Source: a virus
Strand: one strand, 5' to 3'
Virus record (IMG/VR): IMGVR_UViG_3300017967_000149
Location: 1-28,292 of that record
Length of the DNA: 28,292 nt
Translations under genes and position numbers: made by a program
Part shown: positions 289 through 12,543 of the stretch, one piece after another
Numbering within the stretch: position 1 is the stretch's first letter
Layout: every line of letters begins with the position of its first letter
The notes under the pieces: generated by a model
The model's input: the letters and a program-made list of their open reading frames with translations, nothing else
Database searches by the model: none
What the model was told of the DNA's origin: nothing

Positions 289-1398
289 TTAGATTGAACC
301 GAAGTTTTTGATGCTAATGCTACCTACCATTCCGGCATGAGCTTGGCACTGATATCTGTATCCTCCAGATATGCTTGATGGAATTTTCCAATACAGAGTG
401 CCCTGTGTCTTACCCTGTGCCGATGCGCCCGTCGATACAGTACCGTCAATGTCAACGTGTATCAATCCAGTATTGTAAGGAGTGGCTGTAGGATCCTGTA
501 TTTCAAATGGATGTCCTGTTAGTCCTGAAAGTTTAAATGCAATGGTGGCACCATTTAGTGCATAGACTGTTGGATTATTTCCAGTATATTGATCAAATAG
601 ATATGCAGATGATCCACTGTTAGTAACGGTAAGCATAGTAATTGCAGGCATATACGTTTGATCGATTGTAAAGTTTCCTGCCTGTACTTCCGTTAGATCT
701 GTAAAATCAGAAACACTGCTAACTGCATTTGTTATTGTTACGGTATCTGTTGCTGCATTTGTTGTGAGTGAAATACCTGCGCCTGCAACAAGAGTTAGTG
801 TATCTCCGGATGATTCAGCGACAACATTAGTTTGTCCACTTACTGCAATAGTTCCAAATGCATTTCCGCCACCACCTCCTGGAGTTGCTGAAATAGTAAT
901 GGAATCGTTATCAGCATCAGTTGTGATTGTTACATTAGAACCAGCAACTAATGTTAGTGTATCAGATGCAGTATCAGCAACAACATTAGTTTGTCCATCC
1001 ACTGCAAAGGTTGTAAATTTACTACCAGTGTTTTCGATAGTAATGGTACCATCATCAGCACTTGTTGTGCTTATTCCGTTCGCACCAACAAACTGAAGAG
1101 TATTACCAGAAGTAATAGTTCTAACAGTTGAATCATCAGCAGCAATAGTTAATTCAAAACTTCCCGAACCTCCACCAACGCCAGCAGCAGTTGCCTTAGT
1201 TAAGAAGTCTGCATCCGAAACGTTTGAAAGGTCATCAATGGCCATGCTATAGCCACCGGTCTGTGTTCCGTCATAGACCCTAAGAGTCTTGTTGTCCTGA
1301 TCGTAATAGATCTCTCCTCTTGACCCAAGTTTTCTACCGAGAAAATCCGAATCTCTTGGAACTACTCGTAAATTGTTTATAATAGGAAGTCTTGCCAT
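289..1398 (-). CDS. Virion/fibre-type protein with tandem beta repeats and a C-terminal cupredoxin-like domain
   Basis: 369 residues. Residues 1-60 (ARLPIINNLRVVP...GEIYYDQDNKTLRVYDG) are of a type common at the start of marine T4-like phage fibre or structural proteins. Three repeats of about 45 residues follow (80-124, 128-172, 181-225), separated by Gly-rich linkers (GVGGGSGS, PGGGGG), as in fibre shafts. Residues 250-369 look like a small cupredoxin: H296 in TGHPFEI, then YRYQCQAHAGMVGSI with C351, H354 and M357. These supply the His-Cys-His-Met set of a type 1 copper site, with the short C-x2-H-x2-M spacing known from amicyanin. Copper binding is inferred, not shown. The gene follows the enzyme cassette after an 18-bp gap holding a GATAAATA motif. 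The start is ATG, with AGGA about 11 nt upstream. Confidence 0.75.
   Translation of the reverse strand: MARLPIINNLRVVPRDSDFLGRKLGSRGEIYYDQDNKTLRVYDGTQTGGYSMAIDDLSNVSDADFLTKATAAGVGGGSGSFELTIAADDSTVRTITSGNTLQFVGANGISTTSADDGTITIENTGSKFTTFAVDGQTNVVADTASDTLTLVAGSNVTITTDADNDSITISATPGGGGGNAFGTIAVSGQTNVVAESSGDTLTLVAGAGISLTTNAATDTVTITNAVSSVSDFTDLTEVQAGNFTIDQTYMPAITMLTVTNSGSSAYLFDQYTGNNPTVYALNGATIAFKLSGLTGHPFEIQDPTATPYNTGLIHVDIDGTVSTGASAQGKTQGTLYWKIPSSISGGYRYQCQAHAGMVGSISIKNFGSI
724..1161 (-). repeat. Three tandem ~45-residue coding repeats
   Basis: Inside the 369-aa protein, residues 80-124, 128-172 and 181-225 share the pattern F-x-x-x-A-(x)-x-G-x-T-N...D-T-L-T-L-V-A-G-x-x-(I/V)-x-x-T-T...D-x-I/V-T-I. 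The second and third copies are also close at DNA level: the 17-base string caacattagtttgtcca occurs in both. The first copy is more divergent. This fits a beta-structured shaft grown by duplication. Confidence 0.65.
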
Positions 1399-1416: not shown

Positions 1417-1992
1417 CTAAGAACTTTGTTTGGTTTGATCTTGGTGCATAATATTCATGCCCACAATAATTCTGTCATTTTCTGTCTTATTAAATTCAAC
1501 ACCATGCCACGTATCCCCCCTAAAACACAGCAATAGACCTGGCTGGGGATCAAGATATATTTCAATATCCGGAAAAAATATTCTACCACTGTCCTTGGGT
1601 ACTGAAACATAATAAACAAGACTAAATGTTGATGGAAAATGAGAGTGAACAGCACAGCCGCTTTCCTTGTTGTATACATTACACCAACAGTCTATCATGT
1701 GTGGATTAAATATCGAAAAATTTAACTTTTCGTCAGCAATATGTTTTGTAAATATTTTTGCTGCCTGCGCCACCCTATTAAATCCTGAAGCATTTTCCAT
1801 ATCCCAGCCGCTTTGCCACACATTGATATTAATCTCATCATTGTATCCTTCAGGATTATTTTTTCTTTCCTGATTAATTGTTTCCATGATCTGTTGATTT
1901 ATCTCATCCTTATTATCAAGAACTGTGGTCCAGATCAGTGTGGGTCTCGGATGCTTTGTTTCAAACTCAAGTTGTTCAAAATTATTCTTCAT
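1417..1992 (-). CDS. Putative Fe(II)/2-oxoglutarate dioxygenase (2OG-FeII_Oxy_5 / TIGR02466-like)
   Basis: 191 residues, about the usual size for this family. The core reads W-C-N-V-Y (103-107), then AVHSHFPSTFSLVYYVSVP with H116 and H118, then SGRIFFPD, then PGLLLCFRGDTWHGV with the distal His H163, and R174 as the likely 2-oxoglutarate-binding Arg. The order H-x-H ... YYV ... G-x-I-x-F ... P-G-x-L-L-x-F ... H-x-V ... R is what I know of the TIGR02466 family. Members are presumed to be oxidative modifiers of unknown substrate, common in marine phages. The start ATG overlaps the stop of the previous gene by 4 nt (ATGA, 1989-1992), so translation is coupled. It is the last gene of the enzyme cassette. 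The HxH replaces the canonical HxD/E, so the metal site may be a three-His type. Confidence 0.75.
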   Translation of the reverse strand: MKNNFEQLEFETKHPRPTLIWTTVLDNKDEINQQIMETINQERKNNPEGYNDEININVWQSGWDMENASGFNRVAQAAKIFTKHIADEKLNFSIFNPHMIDCWCNVYNKESGCAVHSHFPSTFSLVYYVSVPKDSGRIFFPDIEIYLDPQPGLLLCFRGDTWHGVEFNKTENDRIIVGMNIMHQDQTKQSS

Positions 1993-2513
1993 GAATAAAC
2001 ATCCATAACATAAATTGTTCTGCGATCATTGCAGGGTTTTGTATTATGCACAAGCCAACTGGGTATTGCTATCCAGTCTCCGGGTGTTAGTTTAACCTTT
2101 TCAACTATTGATTCGCCATGGCTTACTGCCATTGGTCTTGGATCAAATAACAATAATTCTCCTTCGCCCCTAAGGTTTAGTATTACTGTTTTTAGATCAT
2201 TACCAGGTTCGTGAAAATGTGGATCCTGATACCCTCCCGTATTGTAATCAACTACCCAAGAACTCTTAATGTAATTAGATTTTATTTCTTCTTTAATATT
2301 TTTAATATTAGGTTGTAATATTTCTAACCACCTTGGCATCTTATCCTTTGGTCCAAAGGAATATTGCCAGCCCTTTTCCGTTGTTGATTCGTTCCTTCCT
2401 GTGGGATCAAGTTCTTTTTCAAAATCAATCCAATCGTCAAGTTCTTTTATAACGTCTTGGGTTAATTCAAATCGATCCTGCCATATGTTAGTAATAAACT
2501 TCTGTACTATCAT
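1989..2513 (-). CDS. Putative Fe(II)/2OG-type oxygenase with HxH motif
   Basis: 174 residues. The N-terminal 80 residues are helical and charged. The double-stranded beta-helix part carries Y-N-T-G-G-Y-Q-D-P-H-F-H-E (H99, H101, E102), then VILNLRGEGELLLFDPR, then LTPGDWIAIPSWLVHN with distal His H156, and an R164-R165 pair that could hold 2-oxoglutarate. This layout is typical of small phage Fe(II)/2OG oxygenases, though sequence similarity to a named family is not obvious to me. Both flanking junctions are 4-nt ATGA overlaps (2510-2513 and 1989-1992), which ties it to the DUF6065-like gene before and the oxygenase after. The substrate cannot be read from the sequence. It could also be a cupin-like protein without oxygenase activity. 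Confidence 0.65.
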   Translation of the reverse strand: MIVQKFITNIWQDRFELTQDVIKELDDWIDFEKELDPTGRNESTTEKGWQYSFGPKDKMPRWLEILQPNIKNIKEEIKSNYIKSSWVVDYNTGGYQDPHFHEPGNDLKTVILNLRGEGELLLFDPRPMAVSHGESIVEKVKLTPGDWIAIPSWLVHNTKPCNDRRTIYVMDVYS

Positions 2514-3295
2514 TTTTTTCCAAAGAATTTTTTAATCCTATTCCATAATGATTTATCATCATAGAAAAACTTTTTGTACATCCTTGCCACAAGTTTAGTA
2601 TCTCGAGTGATATTAATGGTATGAAAATATTTCTTCTTCTCATGCCATTCATAATCTTCATCGGTAAAATCTCTCACCACCAAATCAAATTCTTCATCAG
2701 ACAATGGTATAAGTTGTGCCATGGGAGTTCCAGCCTTAATGGTGTGTCTTCCAAGCAACTTTTTCCATTTTAATTGTATGTGTACTTCACTGCTATGGGC
2801 ACTATCAAGAACTCCTGCAAAATTTTCAAACTCAAAAGTATCTGGATACGGTATGGGTAACATTAAAAACTTTAATCCTTCTGGCACGATAATTTGCCAA
2901 GGAGTGTGAAGTTTAATTACTGTTTTTAAAACTCCAGGGCCCTTTGGAACATCTCTTGATATAGTATCATGAGAATGAGCATCAACGGGTGGTGTTTCAA
3001 GAAGTCTTTCTATCTGTCCACCTGGTAAATCGGCATTAAAATTTATTCCGTCGCCGGTTGTTTCTATGGTCACATCCCAAGGCAACGGTATGATGTAACC
3101 CTTGGCTGCAATATCAAAAATTCCAGGACATCTAAACGTGTGGGTATAAGGCTTTCCTTTTAATTCTGCGTTTACTTTTTTATGGTCCTCTCTCATTGCT
3201 TCCGCCCAGCGCCATTTATAGTTCTTTGCAGGAATAATAGGATAAACGTCTGATATTCCTTTTATCTTAGAAGCAAAAATTATTTTCTTTTTCAT
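2510..3295 (-). CDS. DUF6065-like protein of unknown function
   Basis: 261 residues. The central part reads F-R-C-P-G-I-F-D-I-A-A-K-G-Y-I-I-P-L-P-W-D-V-T-I-E (about 54-78), later TPWQIIVPEGLKFLMLPIPYP (about 131-151), then VHIQLKWKK and a late IKAGTPMAQLIPL. This succession (small-residue patch, P-x-D, PxG loop, then KxGxPxxxLIP) resembles DUF6065, a family known to me only as uncharacterised and often near phage oxygenases and modification genes. No catalytic signature is evident. There are several His residues (a DAHSHDT stretch at about 105-111) but no recognisable metal motif. It overlaps both neighbours by 4 nt (ATGA), placing it firmly inside the enzyme operon. The C-terminus is Lys/Phe-rich (IKKFFGKK). 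The family call is moderate and the function unknown. Confidence 0.6.
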   Translation of the reverse strand: MKKKIIFASKIKGISDVYPIIPAKNYKWRWAEAMREDHKKVNAELKGKPYTHTFRCPGIFDIAAKGYIIPLPWDVTIETTGDGINFNADLPGGQIERLLETPPVDAHSHDTISRDVPKGPGVLKTVIKLHTPWQIIVPEGLKFLMLPIPYPDTFEFENFAGVLDSAHSSEVHIQLKWKKLLGRHTIKAGTPMAQLIPLSDEEFDLVVRDFTDEDYEWHEKKKYFHTINITRDTKLVARMYKKFFYDDKSLWNRIKKFFGKK

Positions 3296-3888
3296 CCATT
3301 TTCCTTTATATCAATATCAAACACTAAATTAATTCTTTCTCTATTTGATAGATTAAAATCAACTTCGTGAGGCATCCATGCGGGCCATACCAAAAGATCA
3401 CCATCTCGAGGTTCATATCTAAATTCTCTCACAAATGGTGCTCCCCAATTACAATCGCTCATAATATTTGCTGGGTTCGTAAAAACAATTGCTCCTGTTC
3501 CTTCTCCTTGCAGATAATAAACTGCTGAAAACTGTTTAGATTTGTGAGAATGTAAAAAGTTCCTTGACATATAACCATTAACATTTGCCCAATAATTTAA
3601 TTTCACATCCCTTAAATCAGGAACATTTTTAAAAACAGGATCAACGCTGTCGTAGTGATTGGCAGCAACTTCAACTGTCTTAACTATTTCTTCAGCCAAC
3701 CAAGAAATATCTGAACATGGATTGTTCCATCTCCAGCACCCTTCATTTGATTTATTAATACCTTGGGGATTTAATTTTTGACAATCTTTAACTTCCTTTA
3801 TAAGGTTGTCAATTTGTTCTTGCGTTCCTATTCTCTTAAGAAACAGATCCGAGTGTATTAATCCTATTTGTTTAATCTTTTCTTCCAT
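3292..3888 (-). CDS. Putative Fe(II)/2OG dioxygenase (TIGR02466-like)
   Basis: 198 residues from the ATG at 3888. An ATG seven codons upstream (3909) lacks a ribosome-binding site, whereas AAGGA sits 5 nt before 3888. From 3888 the protein reads MEEKIKQIGLIHSDLF, and W-A-N-V-N leads to NFLHSHKSKQFSAVYYLQG (H113, H115), then TGAIVFTNPA, then RDGDLLVWPAWMPHEV (distal His H174) and R183/R185. These are the successive landmarks of the TIGR02466/PF13759 oxygenases, also seen in the 191-aa protein at the end of this operon. The gene overlaps the end of the halogenase by 17 nt, with its ribosome-binding site inside that gene, and overlaps the next gene by 4 nt. Coupled expression with the halogenase is therefore expected. 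The substrate is unknown. Confidence 0.75.
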   Translation of the reverse strand: MEEKIKQIGLIHSDLFLKRIGTQEQIDNLIKEVKDCQKLNPQGINKSNEGCWRWNNPCSDISWLAEEIVKTVEVAANHYDSVDPVFKNVPDLRDVKLNYWANVNGYMSRNFLHSHKSKQFSAVYYLQGEGTGAIVFTNPANIMSDCNWGAPFVREFRYEPRDGDLLVWPAWMPHEVDFNLSNRERINLVFDIDIKENG

Positions 3889-5389
3889 ACCATTCCTTGA
3901 GAAATTCATAATGATTAGGAAACATTTCTATGATTTTCTCAACCCTAAATTTTTGATTTTCTATGAAGTACTCAGCATATTTTTCCAAGTCTCCAGAAAG
4001 CATTCTTGGATGATTCTCGTATGCTCCTCCTGGAAACAACACTTGAAACCAATGTCCTATGTGAAAACTACTTTCCGGATGTAGGAAAAATTGTCTGTGT
4101 AAGTTAGGAACAAATTTCTTAATTGTTTCCATTACCTGGGGTGGTAATTTATCCGCTGTTTGTTTTCTTATATCTTGCCAGAACGGTGTATCGTTTTTTG
4201 TGCTGAAATGATAGTGTACCCAAACAAATGCCACAATTTCCCAAAACGATCTTTCATAACTTTCATTTAGCAATCTTTTAGAATTGTTTGACCAAACTCC
4301 CTGATTAATATTGAGCAGATGTGTTAGGATTTCAACTGCCTTGGTCGTAAACGTAATACCCGTGGCTTCGAGTGGTTCAACGAATCCGGCGCTCAGTCCT
4401 GCTGCCACAACATTTTTATGTGCTGTTGCTTTGTGTATACCACATTTCATGGTTAAATGATTGGCTTCTGCTTCGTACTCACCTATAGAATCTCGTAATT
4501 CCTTTTCTGCTTCTTCCGGAGAAATGTGTTTTGAACTATACACATAACCGTTTCCTATCCTATTAAAAATAGGAATGGTCCATCTCCAACCCGCTGTCAT
4601 TGTTGTTGCTTTTGTGTATGGATGACATTCTTCTTGGGGATTAGTGTATTGCTTTGGCATTGCTACTGCTCTATCACACGGTAATATATCATTTACTGGC
4701 ATAAAGTCAACACCAAGTTGTTTTTCTAATAATAATGAATTAAAACCTGTACAATCAATATAAAGATCTGCACTGTAAGAATTTCCATCCTTGTCTATCA
4801 ATTCCTTGATACCTTCTTCATCGGTCTTGATATCAACAATTTCAGTATCAACGGCTCTAATTCTATCTCCGACTATTTTTTTTAAACTATCAACTATTCC
4901 TAATGCTGCAAAGTGTACCGCTCCAAATTGTCTATCCCCGCTTAATGCATAATTTGTGTCAAGTCCTGCAAGTTTAGGACTCTTGTTTAATTTTGCTAAT
5001 TTGTAGGCAGGAAGATAATCAAGATATTCGTCAAGGCTCTTGTCAATAAAATAATCGGAAGTGTATAGATCTGGACCTATTTGTGTGTGTTCAATAAAAT
5101 CATTGTCCACAAAAAAGTTTTTATCAGTCCAACCCTCAAATTCAACACCAAGTTTAAATACTGCGTTGCTGGGTTCCATCCATGTCTTAGGATCAACTCC
5201 TGCGTCATAAAGAAATCTTGCTGTAGCAGGTTGTGTTCCTTCACCTACACCTATTGGACCAAGTTTGGTACTTTCGATAAGTGTTATCTTGCAGGGAAAA
5301 TTTATATTGTTAACCATAAAGGTTGCCGTGAGCCAACCACTTGTTCCGCCACCAAAGATTATTATATGATTTGCCTTCAGAATCCCCAT
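3872..5389 (-). CDS. Flavin-dependent (tryptophan-type) halogenase, viral
   Basis: 505 residues, the usual length for FADH2-dependent halogenases (PF04820). Landmarks: the dinucleotide-binding loop FGGGTSGW at 12-19; GVGEGTQP at 47-54; K79 in NAVFKLGVEFEGW, matching the catalytic Lys of PrnA/RebH; the fingerprint W-R-W-T-I-P at 268-273; and GFVEPLEATGI at 335-345. E341 would be the second catalytic residue, followed by Ala where bacterial tryptophan halogenases have Ser. Known members halogenate indoles, pyrroles or phenols with halide, O2 and FADH2. VirX1 from cyanophage Syn10 is a characterised viral relative that prefers iodide. No flavin reductase is in the window, so reduced flavin would come from the host. 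The gene begins 1 nt after the preceding stop, and the following oxygenase overlaps its end. Halogenase chemistry is a confident family inference; halide and substrate are unknown. Confidence 0.9.
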   Translation of the reverse strand: MGILKANHIIIFGGGTSGWLTATFMVNNINFPCKITLIESTKLGPIGVGEGTQPATARFLYDAGVDPKTWMEPSNAVFKLGVEFEGWTDKNFFVDNDFIEHTQIGPDLYTSDYFIDKSLDEYLDYLPAYKLAKLNKSPKLAGLDTNYALSGDRQFGAVHFAALGIVDSLKKIVGDRIRAVDTEIVDIKTDEEGIKELIDKDGNSYSADLYIDCTGFNSLLLEKQLGVDFMPVNDILPCDRAVAMPKQYTNPQEECHPYTKATTMTAGWRWTIPIFNRIGNGYVYSSKHISPEEAEKELRDSIGEYEAEANHLTMKCGIHKATAHKNVVAAGLSAGFVEPLEATGITFTTKAVEILTHLLNINQGVWSNNSKRLLNESYERSFWEIVAFVWVHYHFSTKNDTPFWQDIRKQTADKLPPQVMETIKKFVPNLHRQFFLHPESSFHIGHWFQVLFPGGAYENHPRMLSGDLEKYAEYFIENQKFRVEKIIEMFPNHYEFLKEWYGRKD

Positions 5390-5390
5390 G

Positions 5391-7067
5391 TTATTTTCTC
5401 ACCACAGCAACATAAACTCCATTCCACCAATCATTCTTACTTTCCTCTTCATTAAGAATAATTTTATCATATGATATTTTTCCGCCCATTGACTCTATTC
5501 CTTCTCTTGCTCCATTAACAACTCCGTCCCAATTAGCATCGTCAAACACCATTAGAACTTCATTTTTAAATGTACTCCAAAAATATTCAACTGCCTGTTT
5601 AGTAGTTGTCTGTTCGTGAGGACCGTCATAGAAAAACATCTGTATTTGATTACTCATTATGTCTGTTGGAGTTTCAAAAATATCATTATCAATAATCTTA
5701 ATTATGGAATCTCCTTTGTATTTTTCTATATTTTCTAAAAATGCATCCTTACTGTTTGAAGGTAAAGTTATGTCCTTTCTCTGCGGTTGTATCTGAGATA
5801 CCCACCTGTCTACGCAGAACATATTTAAATTATTGTTCTGTAGTATCGCACAGGTTGTTGCTCCAAGAAAACTTCCAATTTCAAGACAACTACCAACACC
5901 CTTTGCAAGATGGTTGAGCAATGTTTGTACTCTTGGTGATGTTAATCCAGGTATATCATTATAAACTGACGGTACGCCTGACTTGTGTATTGAATCAACA
6001 GTGTGCTTGACCAGATCACTATAATCAAGTTCAGATTTTCTATCGTGTATCTTATCGCAGTACTGGCATTCCCAACAATCAAATTTACAGTTCTTGATCT
6101 TGTCTCTCCAGACATCAATTGGTCTTTCCTCCATGTTAGATTCTTGAAGCCAATTTTCAAATCCGGGAACAACAAATTCTTCCCCTTGGGCATACTTGGT
6201 TATAATTTGCATGGTTTCGTTTAATCTTTCAATGTTTTCTCGACCGTGCATCTTAAAAACATCAATCCCAAGATCATTTAAAAACTCTTCCCAATCTTCT
6301 CTCCAGGGTGGAAGATTTGCAGTTTTTAGATAAACTGCCGGATCTTCAATTTCCCACTTAGGACAACTTACTCTGCTGATAGGATCGTTAAAGTATTGTG
6401 GTTGGTTTCCGTATCTTGTGTTATTGTATTCAAAGTGTTCTACCATCATAGGACATGATCCAAGGCATCCTTCATTGGCAAGCATACTATATTTTATATC
6501 CTTGCCTAAGTTTTTCTTAATCCATTCCTTTGCCTGTTTAAGTCTTAGCAGGGTATCTCTATCTCTCATCAAATCTCTATCAAGATTGATGTAGTCAAAT
6601 CCATACTTTGCAAGATTAACTATTTCTGTTGCTGTTCTCACATCTCTAAGGATTGTATTTTTTACATACAAATCGGGAAATGCGGCTTTAATTTGACCTG
6701 TTGCCATCCAATGGGTATGTGGAATGGTAGCCACTCTAATTCCCGCATCATAGAGATACTTAAACTGTTCAATGAATGTGTCAAGATTTTTCTGTGTAGG
6801 CGGAACAACAGTATTATTAAACGTAGCACTAATTTCAATACCAAGATATTTTTTAATTCCAATAGCGTTTTCTATCGCCCCTTGTGCATTTTCCTGGGTA
6901 GTTATGGTATCGCCCATTGCATCCTGAAAGAAAGGAGGCATTCTTGATGTAAAATAAACATCATATATCCAATCCTTGTGCTGATTAAGAAAATTATAAA
7001 ACAACTCAAATTGTTTTTCGTTTAATTTTGGATTGAGAGGAACTGAAAATATTTTTCTTGGTGTCAT
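5391..7067 (-). CDS. Fusion: U32/radical-type barrel with Cys cluster + class I SAM methyltransferase
   Basis: 558 residues. The ATG at 7067 is chosen because it makes an ATGA overlap with the previous stop; a TTG ten codons upstream is less likely. Residues 1-320 look like a TIM-barrel of the peptidase U32 (YhbU/UbiU) kind: FSVPLNPK, GIEISATFNN, YDAGIRVATIPH, YGFDYINLDRD, then LANEGCLGSCP. Cysteines at C201, C205, C235 and a C-x3-C-x2-C-x2-C group (C327, C331, C334, C337) could hold one or two Fe-S clusters. Residues 375-558 look like Methyltransf_24: CLEIGSFLGATT (SAM loop), MFCVDRW (acidic ribose contact) and FFYDGPHE. U32 proteins include O2-independent hydroxylases (UbiU/UbiV) and RNA hydroxylases (TrhP/RlhA). 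The fusion suggests a two-step modification such as hydroxylation then O-methylation. Domain calls are moderate, coupling is inference. Confidence 0.7.
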   Translation of the reverse strand: MTPRKIFSVPLNPKLNEKQFELFYNFLNQHKDWIYDVYFTSRMPPFFQDAMGDTITTQENAQGAIENAIGIKKYLGIEISATFNNTVVPPTQKNLDTFIEQFKYLYDAGIRVATIPHTHWMATGQIKAAFPDLYVKNTILRDVRTATEIVNLAKYGFDYINLDRDLMRDRDTLLRLKQAKEWIKKNLGKDIKYSMLANEGCLGSCPMMVEHFEYNNTRYGNQPQYFNDPISRVSCPKWEIEDPAVYLKTANLPPWREDWEEFLNDLGIDVFKMHGRENIERLNETMQIITKYAQGEEFVVPGFENWLQESNMEERPIDVWRDKIKNCKFDCWECQYCDKIHDRKSELDYSDLVKHTVDSIHKSGVPSVYNDIPGLTSPRVQTLLNHLAKGVGSCLEIGSFLGATTCAILQNNNLNMFCVDRWVSQIQPQRKDITLPSNSKDAFLENIEKYKGDSIIKIIDNDIFETPTDIMSNQIQMFFYDGPHEQTTTKQAVEYFWSTFKNEVLMVFDDANWDGVVNGAREGIESMGGKISYDKIILNEEESKNDWWNGVYVAVVRK

Positions 7068-7681
7068 TTTTTTGGATTCCCTAAAAATTCTAACCAACCT
7101 GTTAGAACATATTTTGTTTTATTCAATGGAGGATTTCCTCTATGAGTATGTGTGTATGAAGTTGGCCAAATGACCAATCTACCTTCTTTTGGATTTACTC
7201 TTTTTGAGAGGTATAAAAATTCTGTTTCTCCACCTTCGTTAATGGTGTTAAGATAAAGTTGCCATGCAACTATTCTTTTCGCTGCCGCAGAATCACTTGA
7301 TTCGTAATGCCAGTTATGATATCCCTGTCCTGGAACAGTTTTTTGTAATCTAATGCTTGACATTCCGTGCATTTCACTCGTGTGTAACACGCTATATGTG
7401 TCAGCATACATCTTATAACAGTCCCAAAATCTATTTAAAAAATTAAAAAATATTGGCGTTTCTTTAGTAAAGGTAATAACGTCTTTGTCAAGAAGAAAAG
7501 CAGTTTCGTCATTCTTTTCGTGTTTCAATCCATCCTGCGTTTCTTGCCTATCAAAAACAAGATTCATGGATTTAAGTCTTTCAAAATAATTTATAAATTC
7601 ATTACATTCTTCTGGCTTTAATACATTATCAAATACCATAAGAAAGTCATGATTGGTTACGATCTCTGGATTATGGTTCAT
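7064..7681 (-). CDS. Putative prolyl-4-hydroxylase-like Fe(II)/2OG oxygenase
   Basis: 205 residues. The N-terminus FLMVFDNVLKPEECNEFINYFERL (split over 13-36) is the usual opening of P4H-type oxygenases. The core has GYHNWHYESSDS with H125 and E127 as the HxE iron ligands, then RIVAWQLYLN, EGGETEFLY (the conserved GGET/E strand), NPKEGRLVIWP, then THTHRG with H180 (or H178) as third ligand, and K188/K190 for 2-oxoglutarate. Known relatives hydroxylate prolyl or other side chains, so a protein substrate is plausible but unproven. The end overlaps the next gene by 4 nt (7064-7067). No ribosome-binding site precedes the ATG; instead a CATAAATA motif and one arm of an inverted repeat lie directly against it. 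The true start could be a later Met (residue 15), but that would remove part of the N-terminal motif. Confidence 0.75.
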   Translation of the reverse strand: MNHNPEIVTNHDFLMVFDNVLKPEECNEFINYFERLKSMNLVFDRQETQDGLKHEKNDETAFLLDKDVITFTKETPIFFNFLNRFWDCYKMYADTYSVLHTSEMHGMSSIRLQKTVPGQGYHNWHYESSDSAAAKRIVAWQLYLNTINEGGETEFLYLSKRVNPKEGRLVIWPTSYTHTHRGNPPLNKTKYVLTGWLEFLGNPKK

Positions 7682-7709
7682 ACCGTATTTATGTGCGCAT
7701 ATTACGGTA
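7681..7709. promoter_or_regulatory. Inverted repeat enclosing a late-type CATAAATA motif
   Basis: Perfect 7-bp arms (taccgta 7681-7687 and tacggta 7703-7709) are separated by 15 bases. On the minus strand the loop contains CATAAATA (7684-7691, overlapping one arm), and the left arm reaches the ATG at 7681. The repeat spans the stop of the preceding gene (7702-7704) and the whole 20-bp gap. It could be a late promoter with an operator-like palindrome, or an RNA hairpin that hides the start codon. No T-run follows, so a simple terminator is unlikely. Confidence 0.45.
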
Positions 7710-8289
7710 GAAAATTAAATGTGATTGCTAATCTAACAGGTTTTTGGTTTGGATAGGAACTTGCATGGTAATGATTGCCGTTGAAAACTACTAATTTTCC
7801 TTGTGCTGGACTTACTTTTTTCTTTAGGGTATATTCTGTCGGCTTCTTGAATGGATGTGTTATGTTACTTTCTTCATAGAAATAAAAATCACCGTCACAA
7901 TCATTAACATAATAAACAGCCGTTGTGTGATCACTCCTTAGATCAACGTGGGGTTCATGAGATTCAGTGAAGGGATTCTTAAAGAATAATCCAATTCTAA
8001 TTCTATTAATAGGTTTATCCTTTAGCCCAAGAGGTTCAAAATAATCAAGTATCCATTTAATGTCATCAAAATGAGGAGAACATGGTGTTCCATCTATAAG
8101 CAAAGTATGAAACATGCCCACTATGGCATCATCTTCTAATATTATATCCTCATTTTCCTTAACACCCTTTACAGCATCATGAGTAAATGCATAGGGAAAG
8201 TTTGGCTTCAACATATAGTTGATCAGCCACTGTTGTTTTTCCTTTGGGATGAAGTCTTGTACTTCGAATATATCTTTAGTAATTGTCAC
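7702..8289 (-). CDS. Putative Fe(II)/2OG oxygenase, HxD type (GTG start)
   Basis: 195 residues from a GTG at 8289. The catalytic layout is complete: SHEPHVDLRSDHTTAVYYVND with H114 and D116, then GDFYFYEE, then PAQGKLVVFNGNHYHASSYP with distal His H175, and VRLAITFNF with R186 to bind 2-oxoglutarate. This is the canonical HxD...H...R arrangement, unlike the HxH members nearer the left end of the operon. The gene overlaps the previous one by 14 nt, and only a weak ribosome-binding site (CTGGAC) precedes the GTG, so translation is probably coupled. It opens the enzyme cassette. The substrate is unknown; the family includes hydroxylases of proteins, nucleic acids and small molecules. Confidence 0.75.
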   Translation of the reverse strand: MTITKDIFEVQDFIPKEKQQWLINYMLKPNFPYAFTHDAVKGVKENEDIILEDDAIVGMFHTLLIDGTPCSPHFDDIKWILDYFEPLGLKDKPINRIRIGLFFKNPFTESHEPHVDLRSDHTTAVYYVNDCDGDFYFYEESNITHPFKKPTEYTLKKKVSPAQGKLVVFNGNHYHASSYPNQKPVRLAITFNFLP

Positions 8290-8857
8290 GTCCAGGTTCA
8301 GACATGTCTAATTTTGCTTCTGGAGGTAAACCATGATCGCCCGGATTATGAATTAATAGACCAAATCTATTATGCAAGAGCTTTTTCGCTGATAGCAAAT
8401 CATTACAAGCATTAATTTCTGATTCGATAGCATTTTTCTTGCTTTGAAATCTCATGTTATCTGCTTTTGATAAAACAGAGTTAAAGTGTTTCCTTAGGTG
8501 AATTCTCATTTCTGTTTTTAAGAATTCACAAGTGTTAGCATCTTCCTCCGCAGTCAGAAAATAGTATGTCTTTTCTCCATCTGCTTCTGTTGATTCCATA
8601 AAAACATCTTCGTGTGCTGATGTTCCTGTTCTCAATCCAATTTTAAATTTGCCGGATTCGTATTTTGCTATTCCAAACTTTCCAGCCTTGGCTACTGACT
8701 CAGATACTTCCTCTGCATCGTAACTGGATAAGTTTACTTTTCCTCTGCTTTCCTCTGGAATGTAATAAGAAGTGTAAAGCCAATTGGTATACAGTCTTTC
8801 CATTTCAGGTAGGAGTCTTGGGTCATTACCGCCCAGTGTTTCACTGATTATATACAT
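8276..8857 (-). CDS. Unrecognised phage protein
   Basis: 193 residues with no family I recognise. The N-terminal third is mixed alpha/beta with aromatic residues (YTNWLYTSYYIPEE). The middle carries KFGIAKYESGKFKIGLRTG and EKTYYFLTAEEDANTCEF. The last 80 residues are helical and basic/acidic (LRKHFNSVLSKADNMRF, KKNAIESEINACNDLL), ending HNRFGLLIHNPGDHGLPPEA. No signal peptide or membrane segment is seen. The start ATG lies 17 nt inside the end of the preceding 343-aa gene, with GGAG about 12 nt upstream. It lies between the fibre genes and the enzyme cassette, so it could be a virion assembly protein or an accessory to the enzymes. I cannot choose. Confidence 0.6.
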   Translation of the reverse strand: MYIISETLGGNDPRLLPEMERLYTNWLYTSYYIPEESRGKVNLSSYDAEEVSESVAKAGKFGIAKYESGKFKIGLRTGTSAHEDVFMESTEADGEKTYYFLTAEEDANTCEFLKTEMRIHLRKHFNSVLSKADNMRFQSKKNAIESEINACNDLLSAKKLLHNRFGLLIHNPGDHGLPPEAKLDMSEPGRDNY

Positions 8858-9872
8858 CTTGTAACTTTACTCCTTGTTTTTTAGCATCAGATTCCTGTGC
8901 CTTTTTGACTTCTTCCATTCTCTGTTCCATATTGTTTCTGTCTTTTGGTTGAGAATTTTCTGACTGTTTGACCTTTCCTTCTTCATTAGTAACAAATGCT
9001 TTTGAAGTATCCACACTAATTGCTGTTGCTGCACCCGGATCTATACCAAGTTCCTTGGCATGTGCATTTTTAATTTTTTCCTGGTGAACTGTCATTTCAA
9101 GATTGTATCTGTGTGCAATGCTTATGATTTCGTTTTGTTGAGCTTCATCAAGAGTAACTATTGCGCTCATGTTTCCCGAGCCAATTCTACCATACATTAA
9201 AAGATCCATTGCTGCTTGTTTGGCAAGCCTAATGGTCCAATAGTGTCTTTCGTATAAATCCTCTTCAGGAGTATCAAAAACTTCAAGAAGAGATCTTCCA
9301 TCCTCAGTTTTTCCTTCGTCTGACTCAAGGAATTCGTTAATAAGATCGATATAATGATGTCTTTCTATATAGTGCTGTGCAGCAGTTTGTTTTAATCCAT
9401 TATTCCATGCTCTTAGTTCGCAGAGTTGTATTTCTAATTCTTTCTTTTGAATAGGATCGGCCGCTGCCTCAAATTTCATCTCGGCAAGTTCTAATTCAAG
9501 TTTTCTCTTTTCATTCTTGGTTTCCCATTCTTCGATTGCCTGCTCAAGAGTCTTTAATTCAATTAACCACTGTCTAAGTTTATGAAAAGGTGTTAATTGA
9601 TCAGCACCCTGAAAGTATTTCATCTTATATTTTGGATTGATCAGAGTCTTGTTAAGGCATCTTTCAAGAAGAGTTTGCTCTTGATTGGATAACTTATCCA
9701 AGTGTTTTGTTCTTAATTTTGTGTTGTATTCTGGAGTGTCGTATTCGGCGAAATAGTTCTTAGAATCCCAATGGGTAAGATTAAATTTTTTTCTTAATTC
9801 CTCTTCTTTCGGCGTTAATTCTCTACCCGCTGATATGTTTTTTAAAATAATTTCGTTTTTGTTTTCAGACAT
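8841..9872 (-). CDS. Unrecognised coiled-coil protein, possibly a fibre assembly or structural protein
   Basis: 343 residues, very hydrophilic. Residues about 100-165 form a long charged helix likely to be a coiled coil (ELKTLEQAIEEWETKNEKRK, then LELELAEMKFEAA, then KKELEIQLCELRAWN). The C-terminal 45 residues are Lys/Glu/Gln-rich and probably disordered or helical (NMEQRMEEVKKAQESDAKKQ). There is no enzyme motif, signal peptide or membrane span. A strong ribosome-binding site (GAGGAG, 9881-9886) precedes the ATG, and a CTAAATA late-type motif lies just upstream (9891-9897), so it probably starts a late transcription unit running into the enzyme cassette. Its place beside the 403-aa fibre-like gene suggests a chaperone, connector or scaffold role, which is a guess from position and coiled-coil content only. 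Confidence 0.6.
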   Translation of the reverse strand: MSENKNEIILKNISAGRELTPKEEELRKKFNLTHWDSKNYFAEYDTPEYNTKLRTKHLDKLSNQEQTLLERCLNKTLINPKYKMKYFQGADQLTPFHKLRQWLIELKTLEQAIEEWETKNEKRKLELELAEMKFEAAADPIQKKELEIQLCELRAWNNGLKQTAAQHYIERHHYIDLINEFLESDEGKTEDGRSLLEVFDTPEEDLYERHYWTIRLAKQAAMDLLMYGRIGSGNMSAIVTLDEAQQNEIISIAHRYNLEMTVHQEKIKNAHAKELGIDPGAATAISVDTSKAFVTNEEGKVKQSENSQPKDRNNMEQRMEEVKKAQESDAKKQGVKLQDVYNQ

Positions 9873-9902: not shown

Positions 9903-11114
9903 TTACTCTCTGAAACCGCAGTGTCCTGAACTGCATCCACCGTGTCCTTTTGGCTGGGTAGTTCCTCCAGTTTCAAATCCTGAGTTTGAAGCATAGTTTA
10001 ATACAAACGATCGGTTATTTTGGCTACCGTCATATGTACCAATGCAGTAACCCTTGTCCTGACCATGTCCGTAGTTTTCCTCGCCCATGTTTCCGAATGG
10101 TTTTCCTACGTTGGTAATTCTTCCTTCATTTACCGTGCTGGTTACACGGAATTGGTATCCGCCATTATAACCGCCTTGTTCGCCACCATAGCCCTTGCCA
10201 TCCTTGGAACTTAATCCCTTCTGCTGACCGTGTGCGCCTGCTGATGTTCCGACACCTGCGATTGATTCTGTTGAATATATGATACGCTGAGTCTGTCCTG
10301 AGTTACCCCAGTAAATACCTCTGTCCTCTCCTGATATGGAGGCAGAGTGATCGTTCCATCCACTTCCTCTATTTGAAGTGATGGTAAGTGTTGAGAAATC
10401 CCATCTTCTTACTTGGCCGCTTCCTTCACCATTTACCCAACCGTAGTTTCTGTCCGGATCCCAAACAAAACTGGTATTACCACCATTGAAGTTGATTGAG
10501 CCAGTGTCATTTCTTACTTCCGTTCTCATGTTAAACGCAGTAACGAATCCACCATTCCATATCATGGTTCTATTCAAATCAGTTGCTCCTGACTTGTAGT
10601 GGTAGTTTTGAATCCTACCGTTACCAAGGTTGGTTGTCGAATCGTTTGAATGTGTAATTCTGTTAACGTTGCTCCACAACTGACCATTTTGATAGCCGCC
10701 CATCATGTAACCAGTCGTAACAACCTGTCTTACCTTGAAAGGAACAGAAAGGAAAATTGTAAAGTTTCTTGTTGCCACTGACGAAATTGGAAGAGTTGGA
10801 TTTGCTTCAGTTGCAACAATCTGGAAGGCAAAACCACCGTTAATGTTAAGTGCCTGTAGAGTGTATGAACCACTCAATACACCAGTATTCGCATCAAAAG
10901 AAAATCCTGCAGGCAGAGCGCCACTCGCGGAAAATGTTACTGATCCGTAGTTTTTTGTATTAATTGCATCAGCGTCAAATACCGTAGTAAATCCGCCAGT
11001 TGCTGAAATGTTAGCAGTTCCTCCGTCAGCGGGAGATGAACCTCCAAATTCTGGACCTGCTCCTAACAGATATCTTCCTACTAATGGTTTTGCTATGTCC
11101 TGAAATCGTGGCAT
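9903..11114 (-). CDS. Fibre/adhesin-like virion protein with Ig-like domain and Cys/His tail
   Basis: 403 residues. The N-terminus (PRFQDIAKPLVGRYLLGAG) is followed by a low-complexity linker and, at about 55-122, a putative Ig-like (He_PIG type) domain marked by LPAGFSFDANTGVLSGS. Residues 130-390 contain Gly/Asn/Trp-rich beta repeats reminiscent of kelch or propeller blades (TGYMMGGYQNGQLWSNVNR, MIWNGGFVTAFN, GIYWGNSGQTQRIIYS, GYCIGTYDGSQNNRSFVLN). The last 15 residues form a compact Cys/His tail, K-G-H-G-G-C-S-S-G-H-C-G-F-R-E, that could bind a metal or form a disulphide at a fibre tip. The start is supported by AGGAG 6 nt before the ATG. Neighbours are the 230/232-aa paralogues and the 343-aa coiled-coil protein, so a role in the adsorption apparatus is likely. 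It is a virion protein by inference. Confidence 0.7.
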   Translation of the reverse strand: MPRFQDIAKPLVGRYLLGAGPEFGGSSPADGGTANISATGGFTTVFDADAINTKNYGSVTFSASGALPAGFSFDANTGVLSGSYTLQALNINGGFAFQIVATEANPTLPISSVATRNFTIFLSVPFKVRQVVTTGYMMGGYQNGQLWSNVNRITHSNDSTTNLGNGRIQNYHYKSGATDLNRTMIWNGGFVTAFNMRTEVRNDTGSINFNGGNTSFVWDPDRNYGWVNGEGSGQVRRWDFSTLTITSNRGSGWNDHSASISGEDRGIYWGNSGQTQRIIYSTESIAGVGTSAGAHGQQKGLSSKDGKGYGGEQGGYNGGYQFRVTSTVNEGRITNVGKPFGNMGEENYGHGQDKGYCIGTYDGSQNNRSFVLNYASNSGFETGGTTQPKGHGGCSSGHCGFRE

Positions 11115-11123
11115 TAACTACTC

Positions 11124-11816
11124 CTATCCAAATGATGCTAATGATCCAAACACTGTCCATGAACTTGCGGTTCTGACCAATGTAAAGGTTTGTAATTCAT
11201 ATCTGCTGGCTTGTGGCGTTGGTGCAGTATAACCAGCCCATCTAATGGTCTGAGAAACACCATCAACTTGGAATGCACTGGCATATCTTGCTGTGCCGCC
11301 CTGTATCAAAACCAATCCAACAGTAATAATTCTGTTATTTGTGGTTGGAACATTTGTTAAATTCATTGTAAAGTTTGCACTCATTGAACTGTGGTGCCAA
11401 AGATTAGATTCAGTAAAATCGTGAGTTACAACACCAGTTGCTCCAGTTTTGGCAGCAACAGTTTCTGCAATTTCAGCCAGTGTTGTTGTGCCAGTTGCTG
11501 TTAAATTTGTAAATGTAGCAGCGGCAGGTACCGAAGCACCAATTGTTAAGTTGTCAAGTTGGCCGCCATTAAAACCACCACCGATATATAAGTCTCCACC
11601 AACACCAAGTCCGCCTGTAACTACTGCTGCACCTGATGTTGAATTTGTACTTGCGGTAGTATTCGTAATTGTAAATCTATCGTCTGTGGTAATAATTCCA
11701 GTTCCTCGTGCATCTAACACAAGATCCTGGTTGATTGCTTTTGTAGAGACACGGTTTGTGGTAAGTTGGATATCACCTGCTACTGTTCCTCCACTTTGAT
11801 AAACTTTTCTTCCCAT
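11124..11816 (-). CDS. Fibre-like structural protein, paralogue A
   Basis: 230 residues, homologous along its whole length to the 232-aa product of the next gene upstream. Shared landmarks in order: a G-T-G-I-I-T-x-x-D-R-x-T-I-T-N strand, S-G-A-A-V-V-T-G-G-L-G-V-G-G-D-L-Y-I-G-G at 61-80, TFTNLTATGT-T at 101-111, TGATGVVTHD at 124-133, NFT-x-N-L-T-N near 148-155, a T-N-N-R (159-162), QGG, I-R-W-A near 191-194, and a W-T-V-F-G-x-L-x-S end. The GGxGVGGD(L)xxGG stretch is common in phage fibre shafts and the C-terminal 100 residues probably form a beta-rich head domain. It follows the paralogue by 28 bp with its own CATAAATA motif. No enzyme signature is present. Trimeric fibre or decoration protein is the best guess. 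Confidence 0.7.
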   Translation of the reverse strand: MGRKVYQSGGTVAGDIQLTTNRVSTKAINQDLVLDARGTGIITTDDRFTITNTTASTNSTSGAAVVTGGLGVGGDLYIGGGFNGGQLDNLTIGASVPAAATFTNLTATGTTTLAEIAETVAAKTGATGVVTHDFTESNLWHHSSMSANFTMNLTNVPTTNNRIITVGLVLIQGGTARYASAFQVDGVSQTIRWAGYTAPTPQASRYELQTFTLVRTASSWTVFGSLASFG

Positions 11817-11844: not shown

Positions 11845-12543
11845 TTATCCATGAGATGTAAGGTTGCCCCATACGTCCCACGTGCTACCAACACGATAGA
11901 TAACGAATGTTAATATTTCAAATCTATTGGCATTAACGGTTGGTGTACCGTATGCCGCCCATCTAATACTTTCCGGGACTCCATTAATTTGCACAGCATT
12001 TCCAAGATATGCTGCTCCCCCTTGGTATAAGAATAAGTTCAGTGTGTATGATCTATTGTTTGTTGTTGCAAGATTGGTAAAATTTACCGTAAAATTGGAT
12101 GCTATGGAGGTATGAACCCAATTATTCGTCAACGCAGTATCATGAACAACAGTTCCTGTTGCTCCTGTAATTGCTTCTGCAACGTTAACAGTCTCAGAAA
12201 ATGTGGATGTTCCAGTTGCTGTTAGATTAGTAAATGTTCCTACTGAAGTTCCACCAATTGCCACACCGTTAAAACCGGAAACTCCACCAACGCTGATGTC
12301 TCCACCAACGAACAAGTCTCCACCAACTCCCATTCCTCCAGTTACCACCATTGCGCCTGTTCCTGAACTGTTTGAAGCGGTGCCATTAGTGATAGTAACC
12401 CTGTCGGGAGATGTGATAATTCCTGTTCCGTCAACGTTCAAAATAACGTCATCGTTATCGGCTAATGGAGCAATTTTGTTTGAACCAATGGCCAGATTAC
12501 CTACGTTCTTTGCTACGAATCCGGGGTGTATGTTACGTGGCAT
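11845..12543 (-). CDS. Fibre-like structural protein, paralogue B
   Basis: 232 residues, the duplicate of the 230-aa protein. The order of motifs is the same: GTGIITSPDRVTITN, GAMVVTGGMGVGGDLFVGG (about 64-81), TFTNLTATGTS, TGATGTVVHD, NFTVNFTNL, T-N-N-R, YQGGAAYLGNAVQINGVP, SIRWAAYGTP and a final W-G-N-L-T-S-H-G. The two differ mainly at the N-terminal 30 residues and around 80-100, where this copy has an extra GGDISVGGVSG stretch; the N-terminal difference may set which virion partner each docks to. The ATG has GAGGAATT upstream. It follows the 106-aa gene with an 18-bp gap, so it is likely read from the promoter at 20150. The function is inferred as virion fibre or decoration. Confidence 0.7.
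   Translation of the reverse strand: MPRNIHPGFVAKNVGNLAIGSNKIAPLADNDDVILNVDGTGIITSPDRVTITNGTASNSSGTGAMVVTGGMGVGGDLFVGGDISVGGVSGFNGVAIGGTSVGTFTNLTATGTSTFSETVNVAEAITGATGTVVHDTALTNNWVHTSIASNFTVNFTNLATTNNRSYTLNLFLYQGGAAYLGNAVQINGVPESIRWAAYGTPTVNANRFEILTFVIYRVGSTWDVWGNLTSHG

Follow-up and report, generated by a model that had tools for sequence, protein, structure and literature searches.

What is a block of modification-type enzyme genes doing among the structural genes of a phage? This question is raised by the IMG/VR virus record IMGVR_UViG_3300017967_000149, a stretch of 28,292 bases (hereafter, the window) from a T4-like phage with cyanophage kinship, as judged from its large tail-fibre genes and a cyanophage-type connector. 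An earlier sequence-only reading had noted eight consecutive genes, for a halogenase, five Fe(II)/2-oxoglutarate (2OG)-type oxygenases, a U32/methyltransferase fusion and a DUF6065-like protein, and had read them as one coupled unit that might act on the neighbouring fibre proteins or on a host metabolite. The genes exist as described: the eight open reading frames (ORFs) are intact, all lie on the minus strand at positions 1417–8289, and they have Pfam or PHROG matches. Our analysis confirmed that observation, and partly supported and sharpened its interpretation. With moderate confidence, we propose that this operon of the structural region makes a fibre-tip adhesin, two helper proteins and enzymes that would modify the adhesin, or the fibre capped by it, after translation.

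Gene order around the U32-like/methyltransferase fusion

We collected related loci by profile scans, retaining the best 80 of 424, the best 80 of at least 544 and the best 80 of at least 595 loci, ranked by their likeness to the query. The 146 U32-fusion ORFs were reduced to 74 at 90% identity (71 from IMG/VR and 3 from cultured phages), among which a near-identical locus represents the window. Within the 5 kb upstream of the fusion (57 non-redundant loci), the two helpers were each found in 56 loci and the adhesin in 55. The order was adhesin, helper 1, helper 2, fusion in 45 loci, as in the window, and 10 had the helpers swapped; the two exceptions were one locus without the adhesin and one without the adhesin or either helper. 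The sequence-only reading had proposed to look in viral metagenome contigs for a conserved order of its eight families; the order kept in 55 of the 57 loci is that of the adhesin, both helpers and the fusion. Within the 4 kb downstream (n = 70), an oxygenase was present in 58 loci, a DUF6065-like gene in 54 and a halogenase in 40. Because this merged set includes loci found by the DUF6065 scan, which inflates its DUF6065 count, we recounted the U32-scan loci only (80 loci, 49 non-redundant). The upstream genes (n = 33) were then the adhesin in 31 loci and the helpers in 32 and 32, and the downstream genes (n = 47) were an oxygenase in 37, a halogenase in 35 and a DUF6065-like gene in 33.

In these wide counts, “oxygenase” means any of 12 clusters seeded either from genes next to the cassette or from annotations in the records; two of the clusters have no Pfam match in their representatives, one is sub-threshold and one is DUF6445. 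A strict recount used the three Pfam-supported families to which the oxygenases of the window belong, and still placed one downstream of the fusion in 56 of 70 merged loci and 35 of 47 U32-scan loci. In the U32-scan set, oxygenase genes numbered 99, halogenase genes 42 and DUF6065-like genes 40 in the zone from −6 to +5 kb around the fusion, among 550 other genes of at least 80 residues (enzymes included), whereas the 257 genes outside it included 14, 0 and 0, respectively. At 75% identity, with contig ends unfiltered, a halogenase, a DUF6065-like gene and an oxygenase all occurred together within eight genes in 25 of 50 loci, and none of them did in 6. The genes form an operon, and this operon is linked to the adhesin gene. 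Its most constant part is the adhesin, the two helpers and the fusion, while the halogenase and the extra oxygenases come and go, and it reaches upstream to position 11114, which adds the adhesin gene and two helper genes (Table 1). The idea of a single unit therefore stood, with its upstream limit drawn too narrowly and its membership too rigidly at eight genes.

Table 1. Features of the operon and its downstream boundary in the window.
Feature	Positions	Strand	Basis and remarks
Probable fibre-tip adhesin (TF1417 family)	9903..11114	−	PHROG_1417, PF05345, AF2 model; proposed substrate
Helper 1 (PHROG_1409, grouped with cyanophage cluster GC353), hypothetical	8841..9872	−	PHROG; upstream in 56/57 U32-fusion loci
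Helper 2 (family of cyanophage cluster GC352), hypothetical	8276..8857	−	Common profile matches; upstream in 56/57
2OG-Fe(II) oxygenase, HxD..H..R	7702..8289	−	PF13640/PHROG_274
2OG-Fe(II) oxygenase, HxE..H	7064..7681	−	PF13640/PHROG_61
U32-like domain + Methyltransf_24 fusion	5391..7097	−	PHROG_1458; probable start is ATG at 7067
Flavin-dependent (tryptophan-type) halogenase	3872..5389	−	PF04820, active-site motifs
PF13759-type oxygenase, HxH..H..R	3292..3909	−	PF13759, PHROG_81
DUF6065-related protein, predicted dUTPase-like fold	2510..3295	−	PHROG_7084, AF2 model
PF13759-like oxygenase, HxH..H..R	1989..2513	−	PHROG_81; Pfam below cut-off
PF13759-type oxygenase, HxH..H..R	1417..1992	−	PF13759, PHROG_81
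Baseplate wedge/tail-fibre connector; bounds the cassette downstream, outside it	289..1398	−	PHROG_677, E 1.4e-32; distant cyanophage relatives

The earlier reading had noted overlaps of 4 or 14–17 nt at most junctions. Of the seven junctions in the eight-gene cassette, three overlap by 4 nt, as does a fourth if the fusion starts at its probable ATG; the halogenase gene and the next gene overlap by 38 nt, or by 17 nt if the start is the ATG at the eighth codon of that next gene; and the remaining two junctions are gaps of +1 and +20. Misassembly is an unlikely explanation of the arrangement because a second contig is near-identical to the window (99.85–99.88% over 13–17 kb, in three overlapping loci of this one contig). 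Against a more distant relative whose halogenase is 83% identical (L095), dN was 0.13–0.48 over 13 genes, while dS was 0.96–1.95, near saturation, with no estimate possible for three of the 13. Where dS could be estimated, dN lay well below it, so the genes are under purifying selection. We also searched for two motifs that we take to be those of late promoters; TATAAATA had 0 matches and CTAAATA had 3 where 5.3 were expected, so no promoter is claimed.

The probable adhesin and other fibre-tip genes beside the enzymes

The adhesin gene encodes 403 residues with an Ig-like He_PIG domain (PF05345, over the cut-off). Residues 131–403 are predicted to fold as a Kelch propeller of six blades (VIA Z 26.6; root-mean-square deviation [rmsd] 2.5 over 260 residues), and Foldseek likewise returned a Kelch fold (E 5.6e-11); the mean pLDDT of the AF2 model is 79, the N-terminus being poor. 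The family, named “sericin 1 precursor-like” in some cyanophage records, was found in 105 phage records, with one to three copies in tandem and a variable N-terminal part. Some relatives start with INDTGYL..LP.GTTAQRP, which we take to resemble the N-termini of fibre proteins. At the other end, a G.SS[GA] motif lies no more than 20 residues from the C-terminus in 71 of 78 non-redundant members; in view of the model, this conserved end may simply close the propeller. Of the helpers, helper 2 belongs to the GC352 family, since 121 proteins match both profiles.

The halogenase-profile scan gave 80 loci, 72 of them non-redundant, of which 34 counted as enzyme runs, that is, had two or more enzymes (in the wide 12-cluster definition) and at least three upstream genes; eight were singletons with upstream genes, and the others were omitted because their upstream flank was short. 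A Kelch or glycine-rich fibre-tip gene was among the five upstream genes in 26 of the 34 runs vs. 6 of 34 background blocks, an enrichment whose significance is indicative, with n = 34 and overlapping background blocks. Glycine-rich here means a length of at least 180 residues with 24% Gly over the final 160, a threshold picked after examples had been seen. With the nine Kelch-type loci removed, a fibre-tip gene still preceded 17 of 25 runs, and among halogenase singletons with upstream genes, 3 of 8 had a fibre-tip-like gene. In two loci (L215 and L261), the U32 fusion itself follows glycine-rich fibre genes rather than a Kelch adhesin. The occurrence of the same enzymes behind two unrelated types of tip is our strongest reason for favouring the fibre tip as the substrate. 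It had been suggested earlier that the neighbouring fibre proteins might be modified, and the conserved order and the recurrent upstream fibre-tip gene back them as the most likely substrate. In one such locus (L232:2162-2956), a sulfotransferase gene (PF00685, 1.6e-13) adjoins the halogenase/oxygenase run behind a glycine-rich gene, possibly as a further decoration.

The enzymes also keep company with each other. An oxygenase-type gene lay within 3 kb of the halogenase in 55 of 70 loci with enough flank, and three or more did so in 34. Within 3 kb of halogenase, DUF6065 or U32 genes, 228 of 609 genes were oxygenase-type vs. 8 of 173 beyond 5 kb; the strict families gave 138 of 609 vs. 7 of 173.

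We examined whether the adhesin carries a trace of the halogenase. Several alignment columns differ strongly with halogenase presence (e.g., R197 in 34 of 38 vs. 2 of 31 members), and because halogenase presence follows lineage, no target site is claimed from them. A C-terminal Trp was considered as a halogenation site and was unsupported: the residue at that place is Phe in the window and its nearest relatives, and Trp persists in loci that lack a halogenase.

The enzymes and their possible substrates

The halogenase matched PF04820 with 323.6 bits (cut-off, 21) and retains GxGxxG at 13, Lys79, WxWxIP at 268 and FxEPLE at 336; K79 and E341 were invariant in 13 of 13 phage halogenases compared. 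Its relatives in the PDB include tryptophan 6-halogenase (4.7e-68) and VirX1 (1.7e-52). Judged by its profile, GxGxxG, WxWxIP, Lys79 and the C-terminal Glu, it can be assigned to the flavin-dependent tryptophan-type halogenases. Relatives also occur in human faecal phage records (MT835646 and MT837902) and in four records named Campylobacter phage. VirX1 itself has a place here: syn9 gp42, the halogenase that adjoins a DUF6065-like gene, matches VirX1 over its full length (1271 bits), which by sequence assigns VirX1 to the second half of the cassette, the halogenase beside a DUF6065-like gene, in its syn9/Syn10 version.

The tryptophan-type family is a point in favour of a different substrate. 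The enzymes could tailor a small molecule or host metabolite, such as free tryptophan or an antibiotic precursor, as the cyanophage papers assumed for the halogenase: in the portion of the report available to us, ORF69 of S-CREM1 was read by its authors as acting on free tryptophan (PMC9964418), and VirX1, as described in the parts consulted, takes many small aromatics in vitro, its active site being open and admitting bulky substrates (PMC8407142). However, among the 16 window proteins covered by our Pfam and PHROG scans, there was no carrier protein, nonribosomal peptide synthetase/polyketide synthase or precursor synthesis gene, and the genes that constantly accompany the enzymes encode a fibre tip and helpers. 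We therefore regard a small-molecule pathway as improbable.

The five oxygenases fall into two groups. Two match PF13640 over its cut-off, 7064–7681 clearly (48.3) and 7702–8289 narrowly (28.2 vs. 27), and both have the 2OG-Fe(II) triad. In the PHROG_274 family of the latter, HxD, H and R are present in 48 of 48 members, and in the PHROG_61 family of the former, HxE is present in 42 of 42 and HxE with the distal His in at least 41 of 42. The other three have HxH…H with the Arg retained. PF13759 is over its cut-off for 1417–1992 and 3292–3909 and below it for 1989–2513 (18.3 vs. 27), which was assigned through PHROG_81 (2.2e-13). In this family, the two His residues of HxH are kept in 250 and 240 of 253 members, the distal His in 250 and the Arg in 247. 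His thus takes the place of the usual acid throughout the family, and these proteins possibly have a three-histidine metal site. The earlier label of five Fe(II)/2OG-type enzymes thus holds for the two with HxD/E and carries a caveat for the three with HxH in place of the canonical motif. A JmjC_2 match, from a family that hydroxylates proteins, was found inside the S-CREM1 cassette. Several annotations deserve a comment. PHROG_274-type genes are labelled “DNA endonuclease V” in cyanophage records despite the HxD..H..R in all 48 members and the PF13640 match in the window member. The labels “ferrochelatase” and “minor coat protein” on neighbouring genes may likewise conceal oxygenases, although the representatives had no Pfam match. 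Additionally, small proteins between the fibre tip and the enzymes in two loci (L250:4352-4864 and L259:7493-8008), with no Pfam match, look by eye like oxygenases minus the metal motif.

The fusion protein, present in 123 phage records, matches Methyltransf_24. Its N-terminal part had been called a U32 domain; Pfam Peptidase_U32 (PF01136) matched none of 22 members. In a profile–profile comparison (hhalign), the fusion aligned with a 27-protein U32 profile over 204 columns at P = 1.1e-4, compared with 0.16–0.85 for four decoy profiles; an earlier comparison with three Escherichia coli U32 proteins had given P = 0.0088, and one unrelated protein 0.17. The alignment pairs the Cys stretch, and also the end of the fusion's domain, GIDVFKMHGRE, with the U32 end, GI-FKIEGR (KxxGR-type); seven Cys are invariant in all 22 members. 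On this evidence, the domain is U32-like by resemblance (TrhP/UbiV/RlhA-type) and is not a member of the family. U32 enzymes are Fe-S, oxygen-independent hydroxylases.

As for the DUF6065 label, 3 of 34 relatives match DUF6065 (PF19541; best E 9.6e-7), and the window protein itself has no Pfam match. Its AF2 model (pLDDT 94.8) has a predicted dUTPase fold (VIA Z 10.5; rmsd 2.6 over 120 residues; Foldseek match to 3ecy, 2.9e-4). We compared the family with the dUTPase catalytic motifs I–V. In the 60-row alignment, a motif III-like Gly (59 rows) and Asp (55 rows) are kept, and the Ser/Arg of motif II and the Gly-rich motif V were not seen, so by its motifs the protein is not a dUTPase. Two patterns for this gene in cellular genomes gave two matches: a short Prochlorococcus single-cell contig and a 188-kb contig of a Nonlabens xiamenensis assembly (L183, NZ_RMVE01000006.1). 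The cassette of the latter is by eye near-identical to that of cyanophage P-TIM40, and its content and this likeness suggest that it is probably a cyanophage contaminant.

A nucleic acid is a third candidate substrate. U32 enzymes hydroxylate RNA and 2OG enzymes can act on bases, so the set might modify tRNA, rRNA or phage DNA; the U32-like profile match and the predicted dUTPase fold are consistent with this, as are genes named DNA methyltransferase that syn9 and P-TIM40 carry downstream of the cassette, at a distance of some kilobases. The lack of dUTPase motifs II and V and the near-constant fibre-tip and helper neighbours argue against it, and we consider it very unlikely.

From the observed gene content, gene order, motifs, purifying selection, predicted adhesin-like fold and two unrelated fibre-tip types, we infer the adhesin as the substrate, together with the sites, chemistry, order of steps and benefit of the following model. 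The adhesin, helpers and enzymes would be produced together during virion production, presumably late, given their position, and the enzymes would act on the adhesin after translation and ahead of virion assembly. The oxygenases would hydroxylate side chains, the flavin halogenase would halogenate exposed aromatic residues, and the U32-like/methyltransferase fusion would add a further hydroxyl and/or methyl group, with the dUTPase-fold protein serving as an accessory scaffold or a repurposed enzyme. The likely purpose would be to give the tip a different binding specificity or stability, or a variable surface. The enzyme content differs between phages, in keeping with a decoration by which binding is tuned or diversified.

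Cultured phages, related systems and the case against

In ten stretches from cultured cyanophages, the two halves of the cassette occur separately. Syn33, S-CAM4 and P-HM2 have the adhesin, helpers and U32 fusion, and these three were absent from all 14 DUF6065-like records, the only whole-genome search made for the other half. In S-RIM44, Sf-FP1, Sf-FR1, syn9, S-CREM1, P-TIM40 and Syn10, a small gene is accompanied by one or two halogenases, a DUF6065-like gene and several oxygenase-type genes. All seven of these phages with the halogenase–DUF6065 pair have tail-fibre-named or glycine-rich genes a few genes before it (Syn10 through its likeness to syn9), and in the six mapped, two or three glycine-rich-profile genes immediately precede the small gene; five of these six phages supplied the seeds of the profile. 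Among 15 glycine-rich fibre proteins scanned from cultured and IMG/VR loci, 14 had a match to Pfam Gly_rich_2.

This separation favours an explanation in which the tail-fibre region is an insertion hotspot where independent auxiliary genes merely collect, as does the fact that the halogenase and extra oxygenases come and go and that some phages hold them elsewhere. In contrast, this explanation does not account well for the order of adhesin, helpers (swapped in 10) and fusion shared by 55 of the 57 loci left after de-replication at 90% protein identity, for the linkage recurring with a second, unrelated fibre type, or for the overlapping gene junctions in the window. We judge it unlikely, and return to the modification of fibre tips as the better account of these data.

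Several observations nevertheless weigh against fibre-tip modification. First, 30 of 70 loci, and 12 of 47 in the U32-scan set, have no halogenase, so the unit does not require one. When the strict families are counted, an oxygenase lies within 3 kb of the halogenase in 45 of 70 loci instead of 55, and three or more do so in 21 instead of 34; eight of the 34 enzyme runs have no upstream fibre-tip gene by the criterion set. Second, terminase or nuclease genes adjoin the halogenase in HTVC008M and S-B64, and in P-SSM2 the halogenase is found near nrd genes, with tail-fibre-assembly-named genes only on the opposite strand. Third, the adhesin is known here from its gene, its fold is a prediction and its presence in the virion is presumed; no modification was observed, and the adhesin residues linked to the halogenase are lineage-bound and offer no clean target site. 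Virion proteomics of S-CREM1, in the part of the report available, listed 14 phage proteins only, with inclusion of the fibre tip not evident (PMC9964418). Finally, proximity counts for less in the structural region of a phage than it does in a bacterial genome, and the fibre region may be a hotspot.

Two arrangements described for cyanophages correspond to parts of the window. The VirX1 locus (Syn10/syn9) resembles it in that, behind fibre-type genes, a halogenase homologous to that of the window is directly followed by a DUF6065-related gene and a run of oxygenase-type genes. It differs in syn9 by having two halogenases, glycine-rich fibre genes, a different small gene and, in the stretch examined, no U32 fusion; about 10 genes there are oxygenase-type by profile, of which five belong to families that Pfam supports poorly or not at all. 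The block of “sericin-1-like”, GC352, GC353 and GC354 genes in Syn33 and P-HM2 (unnamed equivalents in S-CAM4) corresponds to the window's adhesin family, helpers and fusion, but has the helpers swapped and lacks the halogenase and the DUF6065-like gene in the three mapped stretches. Outside cyanophages, clusters for ribosomally synthesized and post-translationally modified peptides (RiPPs) have tailoring halogenases and oxygenases (e.g., MibH). The window is like them in that a ribosomal product gene lies beside several tailoring enzymes in one operon, and unlike them in that its product is a 403-residue adhesin, predicted to be folded, rather than a short leader/core precursor peptide; no RiPP protease or exporter was found among the 16 proteins scanned. 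The collagen-like proteins of mimivirus, hydroxylated by virus-encoded oxygenases, are a case of a structural protein as the substrate; to our knowledge, that system has no halogenase, U32 fusion or DUF6065-like protein, and its fibre type is different.

In previous studies, cyanophage halogenases and oxygenases have so far been read as auxiliary metabolic genes, to judge from the parts we consulted (PMC9964418; PMC3037559). In those parts, the halogenase was assigned free-tryptophan chemistry, with protein modification named among possible roles of the oxygenases (PMC9964418), and 2OG oxygenases were tied to 2-oxoglutarate levels (PMC3037559); portions of other reports repeat a speculative role in antibiotic protection (PMC2984593) or suggest halogenation of a host metabolite (PMC10452541). 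VirX1 was treated as a biocatalyst, with its cassette context absent from the sections available (PMC8407142), and is named as a family member in excerpts of two others (PMC8269204; PMC12645471). Among the listed entries and consulted parts of open-licence PubMed Central papers, none linked phage halogenases or oxygenases to fibre modification. Tentatively, we suggest that many aquatic phages halogenate, hydroxylate and methylate their own fibre tips with a modular, exchangeable set of enzymes acting on two unrelated adhesin types, and that VirX1 and many orphan cyanophage “2OG oxygenases” belong to this set and not to host metabolism. If so, a large set of unexplained phage genes would share one function, the native substrate of VirX1 could be tested in phages already in culture, and host range would gain a post-translational layer invisible in sequence alone. 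Fibre halogenation, if found, would be a new kind of system.

Two further features flank the operon. By eye, the C-terminus of the connector protein (YQCQAHAGMVGSI) looks like a cupredoxin copper site, although Pfam gave no match. Upstream, the adjacent fibre-like proteins at 11124–11816 and 11845–12543 look by eye like tandem paralogues, and relatives also have tandem fibre genes.

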